DNA of 37,122 nt from Deltaproteobacteria bacterium (GTDB lineage Bacteria > Myxococcota > XYA12-FULL-58-9 > JABJBS01): assembly GCA_018668695.1 (NCBI GenBank), contig JABJBS010000409.1, positions 1 through 37,122 of the forward strand. The letters run 5' to 3'. Position numbers and translations under genes: made by a program. The notes below the pieces were generated by a model. That model did no database searches. It saw only the letters and a program-made list of their open reading frames with translations, and was not told the DNA's origin. Positions within the stretch are counted from its first letter, which is position 1. Every line of letters begins with the position of its first letter. This document shows positions 7,940 through 28,808 of this stretch, piece by piece.

Positions 7940-10111
7940 ATGGCTTGGGAGCTTCAAATAAGGTTCAATAAGGGTATGCATTTGGTCAAGCTCAGGTGGG
8001 CGTCTTTATTGAGATGTGCGATTTTTATCGGCCTACCACTGCTCTTAAGTTCGGCGCTGCTCCTGGCGGAGTCTATTCAGGTCCCTGTTTTGGCTGGCCA
8101 AGCTCGAATACCTGTCAAAGAGATTTTTTTAATAGTCGATGATGCGGCACAACTTGAACTGAATGATATTCGAGACGCCAGCTTTGATTCTGTTTGGGAG
8201 CTGCGTGAGGGAACGCTTAATTTAGGTTACACAAAAAGCCATGCGTGGTTGAAGCTTCCGATCAGAGTTGATTATTCTGGTCAAGATTCGTGGTTGCTTG
8301 AACTGGCATATGCAAATCTCGACCAAGTGGATGTTTGGATCTTCAGTGGAGAACGGCTTTTGTCCGTTTATGAGACTGGAGACAGTCTGCCATTTGTTAC
8401 CCGGCCTGTGGAACATCGAAACTACCTGTTCCCATTGCCTACCAAGGGTGTGGAAGAACTTACGGTTTATTTACACATCGCATCGACCACCAGTTTACAG
8501 GTTCCTTTAATGCTTTGGCGGTCGTCGGAGTTTTATCGGTCAGATCAGCGGGTCCAACTCATACAAGGTATGTTTTTTGGAATCATGTTGGTGATGGCAA
8601 TTTACAATTTCTTTATATTTTTAGCGATCCGGGAACGCGCTTATTTACTCTACGTTGCTTTTGTTATGATGGAAGCTTCTTATCAGGGCTTTCACCAGGG
8701 TTTTACCTATCAGAACCTTTGGCCCAATAATTCATGGTGGCATTCTATCAGCGGTGGAGTTGCGATTTCATTAACCATCGCTTTTGCGGCATTCTTCTCC
8801 AACGAGATTCTAGAGCTTCGAAAACGCGGTCTAAAAAGTTATCGCTTTTTTGACGGGGTCGGGGCGATTGCCGTTGGTATAGCGGCGTGTGCGTTTGTCG
8901 TCGAATATTCATGGATAGCTCGCACAGTTTCCGTATTGGCCATTGTGGCTGCGGGAGGAATCATCTTTGTGGGGGTAGGTCGATGGCGAGAAGGCTTTCG
9001 TCCTGCCAAGACTTTCACCCTGGCTTGGTCAGCTTTCTTATTAGGTGCAGTTGTCTTCTCCCTGAGCAAGCTGGGTTTGGTTGGGCACAATGTTGTTACC
9101 GAATACGGTTTGCAAATTGGAGCAACGCTTGAAGTGATGCTTCTTTCAGTTGCTCTGGGTCAGCGTATCAACGAAGAAAGACGAGATAAATTTCATACCA
9201 AAGCGAGATTACTCGATGAGCAAATGCGTTTGGTGAAATCTTATGAGAGGTTTGTTCCGAGCCGTTTTCTAGCCCTGCTGGGTAAAGACAGTATTACGGA
9301 GGTAAAGCTTGGTGATCATGTGGCTATGAACATGACTATCCTTTTCTCAGATATCCGAAAGTTTACTTCTATGTCGGAGAAAATGAGTCCGAAGGATAAT
9401 TTTATCTTTTTAAATGATTATTTAAAGCGCATGGAGCCCGTTATCGATTCTCATAATGGGTTTGTCGATAAATATATCGGCGACTGCATCATGGCATTAT
9501 TCGACCGCAGGCCGGACGATGCTGTAGATTCCGGGATCTTGATGATGAAGGCTTTGGCTGACTTCAATGTGGAGCTTCGGGAGGCAGGCAAAGAGACCTT
9601 CGATATAGGTATGGGTATCAATTGGGGCGAGATGATGCTGGGTACCATTGGCGCGACGGGGCGTATGGAGGGCACGGTGATCAGCGATGCCGTCAATACA
9701 GCCAGCCGTATCGAATCGTTGACTAAGGTCTATGGGGCGCCGTTGTTGATCAGTGAGGCCGTTTTCGACCGGCTGGAAAATCCTGCAAAATTCACGGTGA
9801 GAATTTTAGATCGGGTACGGGTTAAAGGGCGGGTTGAACCGGTTGTGCTTTATGAAGTTTTGGATGTGCTGGAGCCTGCGCTACTGCAGCGAAGGGGCTC
9901 ATACAAAAAAGATTATGAGCGAGCATTGCGGCAATTTTGGGCTGCGGATTTTAAGGGGGCCTTAGAGACCTTTGAACACTGCGCTGAGGTTGATCCAAGC
10001 GACTTGGCTGTAGCGCTGTTTATTCGCCGCTGTGAATGGCAAAGTCGTCAGGCCGTAGATACGAATTGGACCGGAGCCTTTGAAATCGAAGCTTTAAAGG
10101 AGCAAGGATAA
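7940..10111 (+). CDS. 7TMR-DISM receptor adenylate cyclase (class III)
   Basis: A 723-residue membrane receptor cyclase. An N-terminal signal/anchor (about residues 20-42) precedes a periplasmic beta-rich domain of the 7TMR-DISMED2 type (about 60-200), then a seven-helix 7TMR-DISM region (about 204-410), a short linker helix, and a class III cyclase domain (about 455-645). Catalytic residues appear intact: the metal aspartates in LFSDIRKFT and GDCIMALF, the Lys of DKYIGD, and the Asp plus Asn/Arg pair in SDAVNTASRIES, which favours ATP as substrate. A C-terminal ~70-residue tail looks TPR-like (YERALRQFWAADFKGALETFEHCAEVDP). It should make cAMP in response to an extracytoplasmic ligand. A downstream ATG at 7976 is an equally good start. 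Confidence 0.9.
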   Translation: MAWELQIRFNKGMHLVKLRWASLLRCAIFIGLPLLLSSALLLAESIQVPVLAGQARIPVKEIFLIVDDAAQLELNDIRDASFDSVWELREGTLNLGYTKSHAWLKLPIRVDYSGQDSWLLELAYANLDQVDVWIFSGERLLSVYETGDSLPFVTRPVEHRNYLFPLPTKGVEELTVYLHIASTTSLQVPLMLWRSSEFYRSDQRVQLIQGMFFGIMLVMAIYNFFIFLAIRERAYLLYVAFVMMEASYQGFHQGFTYQNLWPNNSWWHSISGGVAISLTIAFAAFFSNEILELRKRGLKSYRFFDGVGAIAVGIAACAFVVEYSWIARTVSVLAIVAAGGIIFVGVGRWREGFRPAKTFTLAWSAFLLGAVVFSLSKLGLVGHNVVTEYGLQIGATLEVMLLSVALGQRINEERRDKFHTKARLLDEQMRLVKSYERFVPSRFLALLGKDSITEVKLGDHVAMNMTILFSDIRKFTSMSEKMSPKDNFIFLNDYLKRMEPVIDSHNGFVDKYIGDCIMALFDRRPDDAVDSGILMMKALADFNVELREAGKETFDIGMGINWGEMMLGTIGATGRMEGTVISDAVNTASRIESLTKVYGAPLLISEAVFDRLENPAKFTVRILDRVRVKGRVEPVVLYEVLDVLEPALLQRRGSYKKDYERALRQFWAADFKGALETFEHCAEVDPSDLAVALFIRRCEWQSRQAVDTNWTGAFEIEALKEQG

Positions 10112-18931: not shown

Positions 18932-19635
18932 AGCTCTACGGGAATACTTTCGATGGGATGAACGCTGCCGTCTAGTTTGTATTGGCATCGGTAAGCAAGA
19001 AGCTCAACCTTGTCAGCCACCTCTCTGAGCGCTGCCCCATATTTCGGATCGACCTCGTCGGCTGGGCGAAACTGTTTACAGTCACTGCGCCCGATAAAAA
19101 ATAGCATGACCGCTCGGGACCCTTGTTCAGCCGCGTGAGCGAGTTCGTAGAGGTGCTTTTTACCCCGTTCAGTGACGGCATCTGGAAAAGCGGCGTAGTT
19201 ACCCACGCGCATCGTAGCATTCTTAACTTCGACGTAGCAGTCGGGCTCACCGGGCTTTCCACTTAAATAGACGTCGATCCTGGATTTTTTTTCTCGGCCA
19301 TATTTTACCTCGCGTTTGATCTCGGGGTAGCCGCTTAGCTCGGGGATCTTTTCTAGGGCTATCCAGTTGGCGATGGCCGCATTGGGGGTACCGGTATTGA
19401 CGCCAACCCAGGTTCTTCCCATCTTAATCTGTTCCCAGGTATAGCGTAATTTTCGCTTCGGATTCTCGGAATCACTAATGATAACAGGACTTCCCGGCTC
19501 CGCGCAGGAAGTCATAGCTCCCGAGTTTGCACAGTGGACAGTGATGATCTCACCGGACTCCAGCTCGATATCAGCAAGAAATCTCTTGTACCGTTTGACC
19601 AGGGTTCCGCGTGTAAGAGTGCGGTTAAGTTTCAT
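18928..19635 (-). CDS. sfsA: SfsA family protein (sugar fermentation stimulation homologue)
   Basis: A 235-residue SfsA homologue. The N-terminal OB-like part has LVKRYKRFLADIEL and HCANSGAM; the core has RTWVGVNTGTPNAAI, then a nuclease-like site with RIDVYLS and CYVEVKNATM, followed by FPDAVTERGKKHLYEL and AVMLFFIGRSDC. This D...ExK arrangement is that of the PD-(D/E)XK fold described for SfsA. The family was named for effects on maltose metabolism in E. coli and is reported to bind DNA; its real role in most bacteria is unclear. Monocistronic, divergent from the pseudokinase gene and convergent with fabI. Confidence 0.92.
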   Translation of the reverse strand: MKLNRTLTRGTLVKRYKRFLADIELESGEIITVHCANSGAMTSCAEPGSPVIISDSENPKRKLRYTWEQIKMGRTWVGVNTGTPNAAIANWIALEKIPELSGYPEIKREVKYGREKKSRIDVYLSGKPGEPDCYVEVKNATMRVGNYAAFPDAVTERGKKHLYELAHAAEQGSRAVMLFFIGRSDCKQFRPADEVDPKYGAALREVADKVELLAYRCQYKLDGSVHPIESIPVEL

Positions 19636-19788: not shown

Positions 19789-22119
19789 GTGCTCTGCTAC
19801 AGGTGCGGTGCATATACAGAAGATGGTGCCAAGAAGTGTGGTGAATGCGGAGCTCCGTTTTCTGCCGAGCGGCGCCGGACCGCCCGCAAAGCTTTACACG
19901 AAAATGGTGACGGTCTTCACGGTAGCTTCCCTTTTGAAGTCGGTTATAAAATTGCCGGTCGATACCGGGTCAAATCTTTTCGCGACTCCGGAGCTGCGGG
20001 CTGGATGGTTCGGGCTCGTGACGAGAACACTGAACAAGATGTTGCCGTAAAAGTTATCGATTCGAAACTGATCCAAAGCGAACGCGAAATCAATAATTTC
20101 CTCGCGGTTTGCCGCAAAGCTCGCAAAGTTGATCACATCAATGTGGCCCGCCTCTATGAAGAAGGCCGTGAGGGCAATGTTGTCTATTATGTGATGCAGT
20201 ACCTCGAAGGCCTAACCTTGCGCCGAATTATCGATTTGAGAATCGAGAAGAAGCAAGTTTTTCAGCATAACGAAGTGTTGCCTCTATTCAATCAGTTGGC
20301 AGATGGGCTCAGTAGCCTTGGGCGCTTTAAATTTCATGGAAGTATATACCCGGGTAGTATTACTGTTCTCCCCGATGTTCTGAAAATAACCGGTGTTGCG
20401 CATTATCAGGCCATCCCTCGGCGTCCACTTATTGTTAAGCACGACGGCAACGAATCGAACCATTACCTCGCTCCTGAATCTCGGAATGATACAGGCAAGC
20501 CTGGGCCTCGTTCCGATGTCTATTCTCTTGCCGTAATCTTCGCTGAGATGATGTCTGGCGTGGTTTATGGCCGTGATAGTGCAGCTCGCTGGGATGGTGC
20601 CCGTGAGGTACTCGGCGAGAATATGTTTCAGGTTCTCTCCAAGGCGCTTTCTATAAATCCGGAAGGTCGTTTCGAATCAGCATCATCGTTTGTGGATGCA
20701 CTTTTTAATGAAGTAGATGATAGCGATTTTCCTGTTGTTGAAATCGAAGAGGATGATGGCTTGGAAGCCACACCGGTTGTCATTGCGGAAGAGATGCTCG
20801 CAGCAAATCTACTACCAGACGATGATGATGATGCCGAATCCGTAGAGTTGAACTCAGGCGTTTTTGAGATCGATGAAGTAGAAGCTCTACTGGAAATTGA
20901 GGCAGATGATACGGCATCGGATAACGTTGATATCGAAGAGATTACCGGCGTTGATTTAGTCATTGGCGATGATTCGCAGGTGGAACAAATCGCTGAACTT
21001 GGCGAATTGAAAATCAAAGACCTACCTCCAACCAAAGCCATGCATGTTGCTAAGCAGCCATCGGCGAATGGTCGATGGATTGGTCTTGGAATCATTTTAC
21101 TTGGTGTGGTGGTTTCAGCGGCGATTTTAATCAATTCTGGCAGTGATGTGGCGACCCCGGTTCCGGCTGAGAAAGTCACTGTGATTCCCGTTCCGGAACC
21201 ACCTGTTTTGATTCCTGCGGTCGAGGGTGAAGTAGCAGATATGGCTCCAGGTGATGATGCTGCTCAAAAGCAAGATCAAGCCGGTGATGCCAAACCGGTC
21301 ATTCCAAAGCCGAACGAAACGATTAAAAATACAGGGTCGGTCAATGTGCAGCCGGTGAAAACGGTGGCACCAAAGGTAGCTCAACCCGTAGCAGCGCCAC
21401 CGACCCCATCCTCTGAGCGTCGTTTGACGCAACCTCCACCCCCGCCGCCGCCGCCTGCAGCAGTGGCAACGAAGCGTCCTGCAGCGAAAGATGATTTCGC
21501 AATCGACGATGAGCCAGTGATTGAGCCCGAACCCCGTGAGCCGGGTTGCCGACGAGGCATGATCTTAGTTGAAGCCGGAGCGTTTACTGTGGGAAGCCGC
21601 CAAGGAGACTCCATGAGGGGTTTTGGTGATTTGAACGCACGCCGAATTAGAATGGATGCCTTCTGTATGGACATCTATGAATATCCCAACAGCCGCAACC
21701 GGGCTCCTAAAGTACGTGTAAATTGGTCTCAAGCGCGCTCATCATGCCGCGCCGTGGGTAAACGACTGTGCACGGAACAAGAATGGGAACGGGGCTGTAA
21801 GGGACCCACAGGTACCCGTTTTCCTTTCGGAAACACCTACCGTGAAGGTACATGCAACCTGAGTGAAGATGGTAACGCCTCGGTGAAACCTTCGGGACGT
21901 TTTGATGCGTGCCGCAGTGGTTTTGGGATGGCTGATCTTGCTGGCAATGTGGCAGAATGGACCCAAAGCTCATGGTCGGACGAAATTGCTGACAAGGTTG
22001 TTAAGGGAGGTTCTGCCGAACAAGATATGTATTCGGGGCGATGCAGTGCTCGCTCCAATGAATCTTCCGGCACCAAGGACGCCCTCATTGGATTTCGTTG
22101 TTGCGCAGATGCGAAATAA
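19789..22119 (+). CDS. Zinc-ribbon / pseudokinase / transmembrane / FGE-sulfatase-like fusion protein
   Basis: A 776-residue one-pass membrane protein. Residues 1-21 are a zinc ribbon (CYRCG...CGECG). Residues ~55-330 have the Ser/Thr kinase fold with the ATP Lys (VAVKV, ~88), but HRD reads HGS (183-185), the usual Asn is replaced (PGSI) and the DFG motif has lost Asp-Phe (KITGVA), so catalysis is unlikely. An acidic region follows, then a TM helix (~430-450), a Pro-rich linker with a run of prolines (~548), and a C-terminal Cys-rich FGE/SUMF1-like domain (~585-776). That domain lacks the two catalytic Cys before the RCSARS motif. The frame is open back to 19534 but that part is antisense to sfsA; the GTG at 19789 has GGAGG 5 nt upstream. 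The kinase-like part should be cytoplasmic and the FGE-like part periplasmic. Confidence 0.85.
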   Translation: MLCYRCGAYTEDGAKKCGECGAPFSAERRRTARKALHENGDGLHGSFPFEVGYKIAGRYRVKSFRDSGAAGWMVRARDENTEQDVAVKVIDSKLIQSEREINNFLAVCRKARKVDHINVARLYEEGREGNVVYYVMQYLEGLTLRRIIDLRIEKKQVFQHNEVLPLFNQLADGLSSLGRFKFHGSIYPGSITVLPDVLKITGVAHYQAIPRRPLIVKHDGNESNHYLAPESRNDTGKPGPRSDVYSLAVIFAEMMSGVVYGRDSAARWDGAREVLGENMFQVLSKALSINPEGRFESASSFVDALFNEVDDSDFPVVEIEEDDGLEATPVVIAEEMLAANLLPDDDDDAESVELNSGVFEIDEVEALLEIEADDTASDNVDIEEITGVDLVIGDDSQVEQIAELGELKIKDLPPTKAMHVAKQPSANGRWIGLGIILLGVVVSAAILINSGSDVATPVPAEKVTVIPVPEPPVLIPAVEGEVADMAPGDDAAQKQDQAGDAKPVIPKPNETIKNTGSVNVQPVKTVAPKVAQPVAAPPTPSSERRLTQPPPPPPPPAAVATKRPAAKDDFAIDDEPVIEPEPREPGCRRGMILVEAGAFTVGSRQGDSMRGFGDLNARRIRMDAFCMDIYEYPNSRNRAPKVRVNWSQARSSCRAVGKRLCTEQEWERGCKGPTGTRFPFGNTYREGTCNLSEDGNASVKPSGRFDACRSGFGMADLAGNVAEWTQSSWSDEIADKVVKGGSAEQDMYSGRCSARSNESSGTKDALIGFRCCADAK

Positions 22120-22164: not shown

Positions 22165-22455
22165 GTGGCAGAATGGACATTTACTTGTTGGTCATGTGGT
22201 GAATCAACAGAGATGGATGACAAAGTAACGCGAAGCGATGAGTGTCCTCACTGTCGCAATGATATGCGTGCTTGTAAAAATTGCGAGTACCATGATCCAG
22301 GGTCACACAATGAGTGCCGCGAGACTATTTCTGAATATATTCCAGACAAAGAACGCTCAAACTTTTGCGGTATGTATAAAGTTTTTCAGGGCGAGCGGGA
22401 GATGCTAGAGGATCCAAACGATGCCTTAGCAAAACTCAATGCCCTCTTTAAATAG
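22165..22455 (+). CDS. Small CxxC zinc-ribbon-like protein, function unknown
   Basis: A 96-residue acidic protein with CWSCG (residues 8-12) and CPHC forming a likely zinc ribbon, then CKNCEYHD, NECRE and NFCGMY, giving nine Cys in all. It resembles short conserved hypotheticals of Deltaproteobacteria, but I cannot name the family with certainty. A CAGGAG lies 7 nt before the ATG. It starts 45 nt after the pseudokinase-FGE gene in the same direction, and may be co-transcribed with it; that protein also begins with a zinc ribbon. Confidence 0.75.
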   Translation: MAEWTFTCWSCGESTEMDDKVTRSDECPHCRNDMRACKNCEYHDPGSHNECRETISEYIPDKERSNFCGMYKVFQGEREMLEDPNDALAKLNALFK

Positions 22456-23891: not shown

Positions 23892-26800
23892 CTATTTGTT
23901 GACATCTATGTCGTATTTGTTGATTTTTTTGTACAATCCCGCTCGGGTTAAACCGAGATTTTTGGCGGCCGCAGCCACCTTACCGTCAACCTCCACCAGC
24001 GATTCTCGAATCACTGAACTTTCAAACTGTGCAACCTGATCTTTGAGGTTGCCACCAAAAGACATGGGCGCTTGGGCTTTGGGATTCATCTTTTTAATTT
24101 TACCCGAGAGGTCATCTGGAATGATGTCTCCTTCGGCCAGGGCACATGCGCGCTGGACTTCGTTTTCAAGCTCACGGATATTTCCGGGCCACGCATAATC
24201 AAGAAGCATCGCTCGGGCGCGTCGGGTAAACGCCGGCGGAGTTCGTCCACCGTGTTTTGCGAGAAAGTGGTCCAAGAGCAAATTTGTATCCTCTTTGCGC
24301 TTGCGAAGCGGGGCCAAATGAACCTCGACCACATTGAGCCGGTACCAGAGATCTTCGCGGAATGTTGCTTCTCGGACCATGTCTTCAAGGTTGCGGTTGG
24401 TGGCGCAGATTACCCGAGCATCGGTGGTGAGTGTTCGTGTGCCGCCGACTCTGCGAAGCTCCTTTTGCTGGAGAACGCGAAGAAGCTTCACTTGAACTTC
24501 GAGGGGCATCTCCCCAACTTCATCTAAGAAAAGTGTGCCTTTATCTGCGATTTCAAAAAGACCAGGCTTGGCCCGAACGGCTCCAGTAAAAGAGCCTTTC
24601 TCATGGCCGAAGAGTTCGCTTTCCCAGAGACCGGGGGAAATTGCGCCGCAGTTTACAGATACAAACTGACCCTTTCGGGGTGAGGCGGCGTGAATGGCTC
24701 TCGCCACCAACTCCTTACCTGTCCCAGACTCTCCAAGGATTGTCACTGGGACGTCTTTGTCGGAGACGCGATTGATGATTTTAAAAACCTGCAACATCGG
24801 GCTGCTGGTTCCAATCATACCGTGCTGCATGGGTTCGCTTGAAGTTATCTCCGTCCGATTTTTACGAACAGCGTCGAGTTCTGCAGCTTGAGCTTTAAGC
24901 TCCTGGGCAAGGCGCTGGTTGAGTTCTTCCACCTCGGCCCGTGTACTTTCAAGCTCTTCGGAGTGGTTGCGCAGGTTGCTTACAAGTTGTGCGTTGGAGA
25001 GTGCGATGGCGGCCTGATCAGCGAAGGCGCCAATCATTGAGCTGTCTACATCTGAGAAAGCATTCACGCGATGCCGGTGATCGAGATAGAGCGCCCCAAC
25101 GGTATGCGGCGGTGCCTGAAGCGGAATACACAAGACGCTTTTTAGATTTAGGCTATGCACAGAGCGGTGCTCGGAAAACCGTTCGTCCCCTTGAGCATTC
25201 ACGGTGTTAATGAGGTTTCCCTCTTCCATCACTTTGATGGCGATTGAATGGCTAAAGGTTTGTTCATCGCCCTCTGGGGCTTCTTGCTCCATATTGCGTG
25301 CCGCACGCATGCTCAGACCATCCGATGAGCTTGAGTCTTGGAGAATGATAAACCCTCGCTCTGCACCTGAGAGCGTGATGGCCGCATCGATGATTCGGTC
25401 GAGGAGTCGTTCAGGATCATGGTCGCGAGAAAGCGCCCGATTGATCGCTAAGATTCGGTCGACGGTTTTTGAGCTATGTCCTGGTGTAAAGTCCATGTCA
25501 CCCTGAAGATATCGCCATAGGTGGAGTCTATGCCATACCTGAGCGTAAGTGATTTCGAATCGGCCGCTGATTCTTGAGAAAGCCAGTCCGGCCGCCGCCC
25601 GACCTTTTTCGTAGAGCTGAGCTGCTTTTTGCGTGTCCTGTCGGCGCGCATAGAGCTGGCAAGCTACCAGATAGAGTGGCCAAAGAATATCTGGTTCAGC
25701 TAGTTTTTCGGCGAGTAAAATAGCTTTATTCACCTCTAGGATGCCAGATTCTACTGGAGAGTCTTTGGGGAGATGTGCGAGTGCCAACCAGACACCCGCT
25801 TGAGCCGCAATTCTCTCTCGTTTGATTCCCAGTGCTTCTTGAACGGTTTGCTGGGCCAATTCACGCGCTTGTTCAAATTGATTCTGCGCGAGAAGAGCCT
25901 GAGTTTGGGCGCCGATGGCTTCGATTTTTCCGGCTTGATTACCAGCCGCTTCAAATTTTTCGATGGCCAAATCCAGAGCTTCTCCCGTGATTTGAGGGTT
26001 GCCTCTCGCAACTTCAACCTCTGCTCCCAGCACTAAAAGATAAGCCCACTCGGTGTGCATGCTTTGTTCTTGTGCAAGCTTTGTCGCCTTGGAAATAAGC
26101 TGGTGGGCCTGCTCTATTTCACCGAGGAAAAAAAGAAGGTTACCTCGGGTCACGCCGATGCGAACTTGTTCCTTGGTGCCATCGATGGCGAAGGCAATTT
26201 CGGCCGCTTCTCGGTAGAGTTTAACGGCATGTTCGAAGTGACCGGTCTCGTGTTTAAACACTGCTAGATTCGTGAGACGAACGACTTGTCGAGGAAGGTG
26301 GTGGTCTTTCCGGGCGGCTTGAAGACTTTGTTCATAGAGGGTTAGGGCGCCGCTGGGATCACCTGATTTGTGCAGGAGCATGGCCAAGGTTGCGCGGATA
26401 AGATCCAGATTCTCAGGATCCTGGAGCCCATGTGCACTCTGGTAAGCCGACTCGATGTCTTTGCGAGCGTCGTCCATTTGCCCGCGGTAGTAGGCGATGA
26501 GGCCGCGGGTAGCCATGAGTCTTGGAGCCAGTGGGTGAGGCTGACCACGGCTGATGGCTGTTTGAATAACCGCGCCGCTTTCCTCAAGTTTGGCACCGAG
26601 TAGCAGTGAGCGAGCTGTAATCACTTCGGCTAAATCACGCTGCGGAATCTCTTGAGCTAGAAGTGGTTCGGCGGCAGTGACCGCCTCTTCATATTTCCCA
26701 GCGAGTAGATGTGCACTGGCAAGCTCTAAAAGTGCCGTCGGATGAGAGCCCGACTCTTGAAAGACGACAATGGCATCTTGATGCTGCCCCCGTGCTACGA

Positions 26801-28808
26801 GAATTTTACCGAGTGCCATGCATGCCGTGAACCTGCGGGAGTCTTCTGGAGGAAGTACCTCCAATACATTTTCATAGAGGTATGCGGCTCGGTTAATGTT
26901 TAGGTTTTCTTGTGCGGCTATAGCGCCCGCGAGCAGGGAGTTGGCGGCAAGATCTTGGTCACCAACTTGGACCAGAAGAAGGCCCAGTTCTGCCTCAACC
27001 GGGAATCTTTCCAGTTGAGCTTTAAGTTGCTCAATGACGTAACTTTTATCATTTGTATCAGCAAGCCCAGCCAGATGATGGCGCAAGCCTTCACCGGCGA
27101 TGCTCACAGCTGGTCCTTGAGAACTTCTCTGGCGGCTAAGTACTTTAGCTTGCAGGAGCGTTTCGATGTCGCGATTGGAGACTGCTCTAGATTCTTGAAC
27201 CCACCAGGCTTGAGGTGATGGTTGCGGTGCCAGCGAGATTCGAAGAGCCAATTGCCGGGCGGCGGGTTCGAGGATGGCAATGCGTTCACTGAGCTGTTCT
27301 GAAGGTGGCAGCACGAGATCTGTGCGCGAGGATGCTTTGAGTAATTCGCGCCCGGGTAGTTTTTTAAGAATCCGCTCGATCTGTGTCGGTTGCCCTGCCG
27401 TCGCCTCGAAGACAGCCTGAGCGACTTTTACATCGTCTGGTCGCAGGGGGCGCCGAGCAGCGATCATGGCCGCCACATTTTGCTGATTGAGGTTTGGAAT
27501 ACTCAGTGATGCTTGTGGAGCGGCTTTGGCATCCGTTTGCCGGTTTTGAGGCGCCGTGGTTTGAATCCAGACGAGACCTTTTGGAAAGCCCCGACGGCTT
27601 AGAAAGCTTGCGAATTCGAAGAGTGGTGATTCTGCCGGTACATCATCAAAAAGCAGCGCCGTAGGGCGTTGTTTACTGATTTTCTCGAGGCCTAGAGCAA
27701 GTTCAGAAAACCGTTGCCATTTTACCGTGGTTGCATCATCGATTGGCTTCTTGGTTTTTTGGGGTTCACCATGAGAGCAGAGCCTCCAGAGTTCACCGAG
27801 ATTACCGCGGCCCGCGGGACGAACGCCGCCAGGTACATCAAAGCCATTTAGAAAAGCTGTTCCTGCAGCCCACTGAGCTAAACTGGTTTTACCGCCGCCG
27901 CTTTCGCCCTCCAGCGTCAGCCCGGCTCCCTCTTTAGTCCCTGATTGAAGGGCTTCTTGGATTGCATTTTTGATTTGGGCTTGTCCCACCGGGGCACCAC
28001 ATATGCCTGTGTCTTGAAGAGCTTCGAGTGCGTCCTGACTTTGTTCAGCTGCGTGGAGCATTAAGAGCTCAAACACTTGGGCGGCCTTGGGCCGTTTGCT
28101 GGGCTCTGGGTGACTCATGGCTTTGAGTTCATTTGTAAAACGGCTGCTTGAAATCGAGTGACCAAGTCCAGAGGGAAGGGGCTCACCGAGGCTAAGAGTC
28201 AACGTGGCGGCCAAGCTGTAGATGTCGGATGCCAAAGAAGCTTGGCCGTTGAGGGCTTCAGGCGCCATAAACCGAGGCGTCCCTCCCTGATTGCCTTGGT
28301 GATTGGTACGCGTGGCCAATCCAAAGTCGATAAGCACAGCGTGCGGGCCAAGGGGAGTTTCCCGTACGAGAATGTTGTCGGGTTTAATGTCGCCGTGGCG
28401 GATATTGTAGGTGCTAAGAGCGGCCAACGCGGCTGCAATTTGCGCTCCGACTACCGCGATTTGGGAGGGCAGAGCTTGAGTGGCCCATGTGGTTAAGGGG
28501 CTACCCTCGGCGAGAGATTCGACCAAACAAAGTCTTTCCGCGAGGCTTTGATTGGCCCGATCAATATTAAAAACCTCAAAAACTTCAACGATATGCGGAT
28601 GTCGTAATCCACAGAGTAGGCCAAACTCTCTGCGAAGATGCATGGCCGACACGGGGCTTGAGACTCGCTGAATTTTGAGAACGACGTCCTCACCGGGCCT
28701 CCATGTATCGGTCGCGCGATAAGCTTGCGCACTCTCGCCTTCGCCCAAAAGGGCATGAGGGCGGTAGCGGCCACCGAGTAAATCAGGAAGAGAGGTAAGA
28801 TCTGCCAT
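23892..28808 (-). CDS. Ser/Thr kinase - P-loop ATPase - TPR - GAF - sigma-54 activator - Fis HTH megaprotein
   Basis: A 1638-residue soluble protein in one intact frame. Residues 12-265 are a Ser/Thr kinase with Lys45 (VLKI), HGDIKPDN (Asp140) and DFG (Asp161) all present. A STAND/AAA-16-like ATPase follows with Walker A GESGGGKTS (301-309). About 600-1100 is helical with TPR-like repeats. A GAF domain (~1125-1275) and a coiled coil (~1280-1320) precede a sigma-54 AAA+ domain: Walker A GESGTGKE (~1356), GSFTGA (~1406; consensus GAFTGA), GTLFLDEVGEMP, and the WPGNIRELENEV region. The C-terminal ~45 residues are a Fis-type helix-turn-helix. No receiver domain is present, so input probably enters via kinase, TPR or GAF. 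Transcribed away from tRNA-Met. Confidence 0.92.
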   Translation of the reverse strand: MADLTSLPDLLGGRYRPHALLGEGESAQAYRATDTWRPGEDVVLKIQRVSSPVSAMHLRREFGLLCGLRHPHIVEVFEVFNIDRANQSLAERLCLVESLAEGSPLTTWATQALPSQIAVVGAQIAAALAALSTYNIRHGDIKPDNILVRETPLGPHAVLIDFGLATRTNHQGNQGGTPRFMAPEALNGQASLASDIYSLAATLTLSLGEPLPSGLGHSISSSRFTNELKAMSHPEPSKRPKAAQVFELLMLHAAEQSQDALEALQDTGICGAPVGQAQIKNAIQEALQSGTKEGAGLTLEGESGGGKTSLAQWAAGTAFLNGFDVPGGVRPAGRGNLGELWRLCSHGEPQKTKKPIDDATTVKWQRFSELALGLEKISKQRPTALLFDDVPAESPLFEFASFLSRRGFPKGLVWIQTTAPQNRQTDAKAAPQASLSIPNLNQQNVAAMIAARRPLRPDDVKVAQAVFEATAGQPTQIERILKKLPGRELLKASSRTDLVLPPSEQLSERIAILEPAARQLALRISLAPQPSPQAWWVQESRAVSNRDIETLLQAKVLSRQRSSQGPAVSIAGEGLRHHLAGLADTNDKSYVIEQLKAQLERFPVEAELGLLLVQVGDQDLAANSLLAGAIAAQENLNINRAAYLYENVLEVLPPEDSRRFTACMALGKILVARGQHQDAIVVFQESGSHPTALLELASAHLLAGKYEEAVTAAEPLLAQEIPQRDLAEVITARSLLLGAKLEESGAVIQTAISRGQPHPLAPRLMATRGLIAYYRGQMDDARKDIESAYQSAHGLQDPENLDLIRATLAMLLHKSGDPSGALTLYEQSLQAARKDHHLPRQVVRLTNLAVFKHETGHFEHAVKLYREAAEIAFAIDGTKEQVRIGVTRGNLLFFLGEIEQAHQLISKATKLAQEQSMHTEWAYLLVLGAEVEVARGNPQITGEALDLAIEKFEAAGNQAGKIEAIGAQTQALLAQNQFEQARELAQQTVQEALGIKRERIAAQAGVWLALAHLPKDSPVESGILEVNKAILLAEKLAEPDILWPLYLVACQLYARRQDTQKAAQLYEKGRAAAGLAFSRISGRFEITYAQVWHRLHLWRYLQGDMDFTPGHSSKTVDRILAINRALSRDHDPERLLDRIIDAAITLSGAERGFIILQDSSSSDGLSMRAARNMEQEAPEGDEQTFSHSIAIKVMEEGNLINTVNAQGDERFSEHRSVHSLNLKSVLCIPLQAPPHTVGALYLDHRHRVNAFSDVDSSMIGAFADQAAIALSNAQLVSNLRNHSEELESTRAEVEELNQRLAQELKAQAAELDAVRKNRTEITSSEPMQHGMIGTSSPMLQVFKIINRVSDKDVPVTILGESGTGKELVARAIHAASPRKGQFVSVNCGAISPGLWESELFGHEKGSFTGAVRAKPGLFEIADKGTLFLDEVGEMPLEVQVKLLRVLQQKELRRVGGTRTLTTDARVICATNRNLEDMVREATFREDLWYRLNVVEVHLAPLRKRKEDTNLLLDHFLAKHGGRTPPAFTRRARAMLLDYAWPGNIRELENEVQRACALAEGDIIPDDLSGKIKKMNPKAQAPMSFGGNLKDQVAQFESSVIRESLVEVDGKVAAAAKNLGLTRAGLYKKINKYDIDVNK

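Follow-up and report, generated by a model that had tools for sequence, protein, structure and literature searches.

Background

Transmembrane Ser/Thr kinases of the PknB/PknA type carry a kinase fold in the cytoplasm, a transmembrane (TM) segment and an extracytoplasmic sensor. Human SUMF2 (pFGE, 1y4j), a paralogue of the formylglycine-generating enzyme (FGE), is catalytically inactive, and PorK/GldK, a lipoprotein of the type IX secretion ring, possesses an extracytoplasmic PF03781 fold with a structural, non-FGE role. GltJ of M. xanthus consists of a zinc ribbon, a TM segment and a TonB_C domain. The bacterial Ser/Thr pseudokinase families ActPs1-3, GLW, CP1, DYD and DLHK were covered in a 2025 review, in which FGE and Myxococcota are not mentioned (PMC12599244), and in M. 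xanthus, 11 pseudokinases were reported among 99 Ser/Thr kinases (PMC6791715). Bacterial transmembrane pseudokinases are a known class; our literature search found no paper on an FGE-linked or FGE-kinase pseudokinase family, and the architecture described below, with its serial loss of catalytic residues, appears to be undescribed in the literature searched.

Gene model and domain layout

The gene lies at 19789..22119 on the forward strand of the window (the whole stretch of DNA analysed, 37,122 nucleotides) and encodes a protein of 776 aa. It starts with GTG, five bases downstream of a GGAGG, and this start codon is conserved in register in 47/47 relatives: wherever the N-terminal (M)LCxxCG motif was found, the first codon is GTG (25), TTG (17) or ATG (5). 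The reading frame proposed in the original prediction is therefore a real gene. A longer frame of 861 aa in the ORF list, opening at 19534, was rejected, since the conserved start codon is the one at 19789.

The domain order is zinc ribbon, kinase-like domain, one TM helix, Pro-rich linker and FGE-like (PF03781) domain, and this layout, with the TM helix between the kinase-like and FGE-like domains, is kept across the Myxococcota sample. Pfam matches above cut-off in the window protein are PF03781 (92.3 bits, cut-off 23.3) and Pkinase (58.9 bits). The N-terminal zinc ribbon (residues 1-24 with C3, C6, C17 and C20; 19789..19860) stays below the Pfam cut-off with 15.3 bits against 25, but its CxxC-x10-CxxC pattern, present in 48 of 55 rows with the window counted, upholds the ribbon as originally predicted. 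It is followed by the kinase-like domain (residues 52-307; 19942..20709), by an acidic, poorly conserved linker that is predicted to be cytoplasmic (20710..21075; 28 D/E against 5 K/R in residues 331-429), and by the single TM helix WIGLGIILLGVVVSAAILI (residues 430-448; 21076..21132; hydropathy 2.68), and every relative listed has a hydrophobic segment. The Pro-rich linker (21133..21546; 27 Pro in 128 residues, including one run of eight) leads to the FGE-like domain (residues 587-776; 21547..22116). All these features are on the forward strand.

The kinase-like domain

The AlphaFold2 model of this domain (pLDDT 80.7, pTM 0.76) has its best PDB fold matches in the solved Ser/Thr kinases PknA, PknB and PknI and, together with the Pkinase match, agrees with the kinase-like fold of the original prediction. 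The closest solved relatives are StkP and PknB by profile and PknA by fold. Of the residues expected in an active Ser/Thr kinase the beta-3 Lys is present (Lys88), and the alpha-C Glu, HRD Asp, metal Asn and DFG Asp are lacking. The motif alignment places HGSIYPGSI (residues 183-191; 20335..20361) where HxDxKxxN is expected, with HGS at 183-185 instead of HxD, S185 at the position of the HRD Asp and Ser190 at that of the metal Asn. Lysine, HGS and missing Asn had all been read correctly from the sequence, but the alpha-C Glu had been overlooked: it is Val107 in the window and is likewise missing in 38/51 orthologues. Likewise overlooked, the Gly-loop has Asp66 in place of its first Gly; it keeps the later two glycines. 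With a predicted kinase fold that misses at least one of the three catalytic motifs, the domain belongs with the bacterial Ser/Thr pseudokinases.

The stretch KITGVA had been described as a clean loss of Asp-Phe. The DFG Asp is indeed absent, but a deletion was ruled out: LKITGVAHYQAIP aligns with LKITDFGLVKALP of the relatives, and so with KxTDFG, without a gap (KITGVAH, residues 199-205; 20383..20403; G202 at the DFG-Asp position), and KITGVA differs from KITDFG by the substitutions D to G, F to V and G to A. From the DFG-Asp position to APE the window has 29 residues, the commonest length in the family (found in 26 rows, followed by 30 in 21). Because the alignment is gap-free and the segment has a length normal for the family, the motif was substituted and not deleted; by the same segment length, an activation-loop deletion like that of ActPs3 is absent from the window.

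Catalytic residues across the orthologues

We searched 58 genomes, namely that of the window, seven order-mates and others from the rest of the phylum, and inferred a tree from the 51 rows in which the kinase domain was adequate, leaving out the motif columns. The window protein and those of six order-mates form one clade (support 99/100), and the gene is missing from the seventh order-mate, G003. In none of the seven gene-bearing order genomes is the HRD Asp or the DFG Asp present, and Lys88 is kept in each of them, so the alignment of homologues bears out the predicted pseudokinase and the conservation of its losses. Since the whole order clade has it, the loss is not the product of a sequencing error and not an isolated case, and a recent pseudogene is ruled out on the same grounds.

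The retention of Lys88 in all seven order rows, together with two of three Gly-loop glycines, raises the question of whether the domain binds nucleotide and, as a kinase of unusual mechanism, phosphorylates itself or a partner or performs some other reaction. Other chemistry is known from pseudokinase folds, e.g. in the glutamylase SidJ (PMC12599244), and the domain may, going by its residues, carry out an atypical phosphotransfer or an AMPylation- or glutamylation-like reaction as some pseudokinases do. However, the window lacks HRD Asp, metal Asn, DFG Asp and alpha-C Glu together, the two Asp are gone order-wide, and the window and the order-mates G002 and G005 have neither of the metal ligands, which makes such a kinase unlikely.

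Outside the order, the orthologues vary from complete to singly degraded kinases. Across the 51 rows the HRD His is invariant, the beta-3 Lys is present in 50, the metal Asn in 48 and the DFG Asp in 43, as opposed to 27 for the HRD Asp (replaced by Asn in 11) and 13 for the alpha-C Glu; all five catalytic residues occur together in 5/51. Orthologues with intact HRD and DFG motifs, which the original prediction had named as speaking against it, thus exist elsewhere in the phylum (HGD, DFG), but none was found in the order clade. Given these orthologues, the kinase must have been degraded within the family, and repeatedly so. As five orthologues keep all catalytic residues, the ancestral members and some of the present ones may, judging from these motifs, be active kinases. 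The HRD-Asp state changed at least nine times on the tree and that of the alpha-C Glu at least seven times; these parsimony counts carry no direction, but the changes are likely to be losses. Monophyly of the degraded rows is rejected (p-AU 2.8e-43); a caveat is that the group was picked by its trait.

Is the kinase domain then a functionless remnant that is simply being lost? The catalytic residues are variable, and the genome G047 (L106:4315-5952) encodes a relative with zinc ribbon, TM helix and FGE-like domain but without any kinase match. Against such neutral decay, which we regard as quite unlikely, APE and the F-helix Asp are invariant (51/51), Arg294 is kept in 50/51, and none of the seven order genomes has an in-gene stop (the G002 copy is broken up by contig ends). 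For the two pairs of order-mates in which it could be computed, dN/dS of the dead kinase domain is 0.16-0.22, far below 1, against 0.33-0.48 for the linker; the values are rough because dS is near saturation, and as a rough estimate the dead domains of these pairs are still under constraint.

Two records deserve separate mention. In L105 (genome G033) the kinase half and the FGE half are read in different frames that overlap around 2208-2314, a frameshift that is possibly an assembly error. The orthologue in L013 clusters closely with the f13 family of the phylum to which the window belongs; the organism named in the title of this record, Comamonas sp. KCTC 72670, is probably wrong.

The FGE-like domain

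The FGE-like fold of the original prediction is supported by the profile score and by an AlphaFold2 model (pLDDT 87.4). Among the PDB matches listed for this model, human SUMF2 (1y4j) has the highest TM-score, 0.80, compared with 0.68-0.75 for the human FGE entries. By E-value the FGE entries rank first in this fold search; the profile match is best for SUMF2 (106 vs 99.5 bits). The alignment also corroborates the short segment between GGS and RC, which contains no Cys and is three residues shorter than the stretch that houses the catalytic pair (Cys336/Cys341) in human FGE. This spacing is eight residues in 47/47 orthologues, and in 0/47 is there a Cys between GG and RC; the CxxxxC pair was likewise not seen in the FGE-like domains that a simple motif search identified at three further loci in the window's genome. 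The window's domain has ten cysteines in all, each of them invariant in 47/47. This fits a disulfide-bonded extracytoplasmic domain, which we consider it probably to be.

The original prediction had seen in the protein two retired enzymes, a once active kinase joined to a once active FGE, with both halves decaying in the lineage. Half of this stands: the catalytic residues of the kinase occur in orthologues outside the order and were lost within the family. The other half does not, since FGE cysteines are found in no orthologue and the whole family has the short segment; we see no indication that the domain ever was an FGE in the family, and with a spacing of eight throughout, nothing was lost in this half within it. 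As a whole, a history of two decayed enzymes is therefore very unlikely. Rather, its conserved sequence features mark the domain as a non-FGE member of the PF03781 fold as far back as we followed the family, one of the many proteins of this fold that lack the FGE site. To annotate the window gene as 'kinase/formylglycine-generating enzyme' would be a mistake on both counts.

Genomic neighbourhood

The divergent gene upstream is, as we take it from its sequence, SfsA-like. Downstream, at 22165-22455 on the forward strand, a gene encodes a 96-aa zinc-ribbon protein without a Pfam family above cut-off. It has one match per genome in 50/58, is strongly conserved (67-73% identity in most order-mates), is linked to the kinase gene in G001, G006 and G007, and adjoins the FGE half in G002. 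Outside the order, however, it lies mostly on other contigs than the kinase gene, and in G003 it is present without a kinase gene beside it. Single-match occurrence, lack of linkage outside the order and presence in the kinase-less G003 rule it out as a dedicated partner. The window further contains a fusion of a 7TMR-DISM receptor with an adenylate/guanylate cyclase catalytic domain (7940-10111, forward strand) and, on the reverse strand (23892-28808), a 1638-aa fusion of kinase, TPR, GAF, sigma-54 activator and Fis HTH, the kinase motifs of which (HGDIKPDN, DFG) look intact and the layout of which resembles CP1-type ones (PMC12599244).

Domain swaps and proposed function

In addition to the kinase-less relative in G047, the order-mate G005 (L066:3967-5649, minus strand) has a gene in which the pseudokinase and TM helix are followed by TonB_C (45.9 bits) and the FGE-like domain is absent. 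The Pfam scan for TonB_C covered the window protein, in which it was not found, and G005 as the only other orthologue; both variants are single genomes, known from assemblies. Together with the Pro-rich stalk, these swaps suggest from domain composition a TonB-like tether that would span the periplasm. The transmembrane scaffold or ligand sensor of the original prediction remains plausible, and the TonB_C swap and the relative without a kinase domain make it more specific.

Sequence, domain order, the losses and their conservation are observed and the folds predicted; from these we infer an N-in, C-out topology, disulfides, a sensing or tethering role and the absence of activity. The predicted disulfide-rich FGE-like domain would sit outside the cytoplasmic membrane at the tip of the Pro-rich stalk and bind a ligand or partner in the envelope; signal or force would travel through the one TM helix to the cytoplasmic kinase fold, which would no longer transfer phosphate but provide a platform for docking or a switch of conformation, and the N-terminal zinc ribbon may be a second protein-binding module. 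That the protein is such a non-enzymatic envelope protein, coupling envelope and cytoplasm non-catalytically through its kinase fold, is the reading we favour, with a probability somewhat above even. Because the layout persists in the Myxococcota relatives and catalytic residues of the kinase were dropped repeatedly among them, it would be an old signalling or tethering protein. More tentatively, and with the balance of probability still against it, the whole may be one Myxococcota family that gave up kinase catalysis many times independently, once deleted the domain altogether and kept the envelope architecture, its conserved job being a TonB-like coupling of envelope and cytoplasm free of phosphotransfer.

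In a phylum whose kinomes are very large, the orthologues of this one widespread gene span complete to degraded states, which allows one to ask what role a kinase fold plays once phosphotransfer is dispensable. If the reading of serial loss is true, the family offers, inside one gene, a natural series that begins with a near-complete kinase and ends with a pseudokinase.

Comparison with known systems

With the PknB/PknA-type kinases the protein shares the kinase fold and the plan of cytoplasmic domain, TM and extracytoplasmic sensor. In contrast to them, it lacks alpha-C Glu, HRD Asp, metal Asn and DFG Asp, has an FGE-like domain instead of PASTA outside, and bears a zinc ribbon. SUMF2 is similar in fold, gives the best profile match and is also without the FGE cysteine pair at the aligned place, but the window's domain is bacterial and membrane-anchored, measures 190 aa against 284, and has ten invariant cysteines specific to the family. 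PorK/GldK may be regarded as a precedent for the PF03781 fold in a structural envelope role; the GldK model matches the FGE-like domain at 50.4 bits, far below its cut-off of 350 bits, and PorK/GldK has no kinase domain. TonB and GltJ-type proteins resemble the window protein in the succession of TM, Pro-rich stalk and periplasmic domain, and the order-mate G005 even carries TonB_C; the window protein differs in having an FGE-like domain at this place and in that a kinase fold separates its zinc ribbon from the TM helix.

Among the pseudokinase families (PMC12599244), GLW has GLW in place of HRD and Leu/Trp in place of Lys, unlike the HGS and Lys88 of the window, and CP1 has a fused COG3899 and no TM, whereas the window protein has a TM helix and only kinase, zinc-ribbon and FGE-like Pfam matches. 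MviN of M. tuberculosis belongs to ActPs3, with deletions in the activation loop, in contrast to the family-typical activation segment of the window. Nevertheless, MviN and EssB/YukC are alike to the window protein in that a pseudokinase domain forms part of a transmembrane envelope protein and has a non-catalytic role (PMC12599244).
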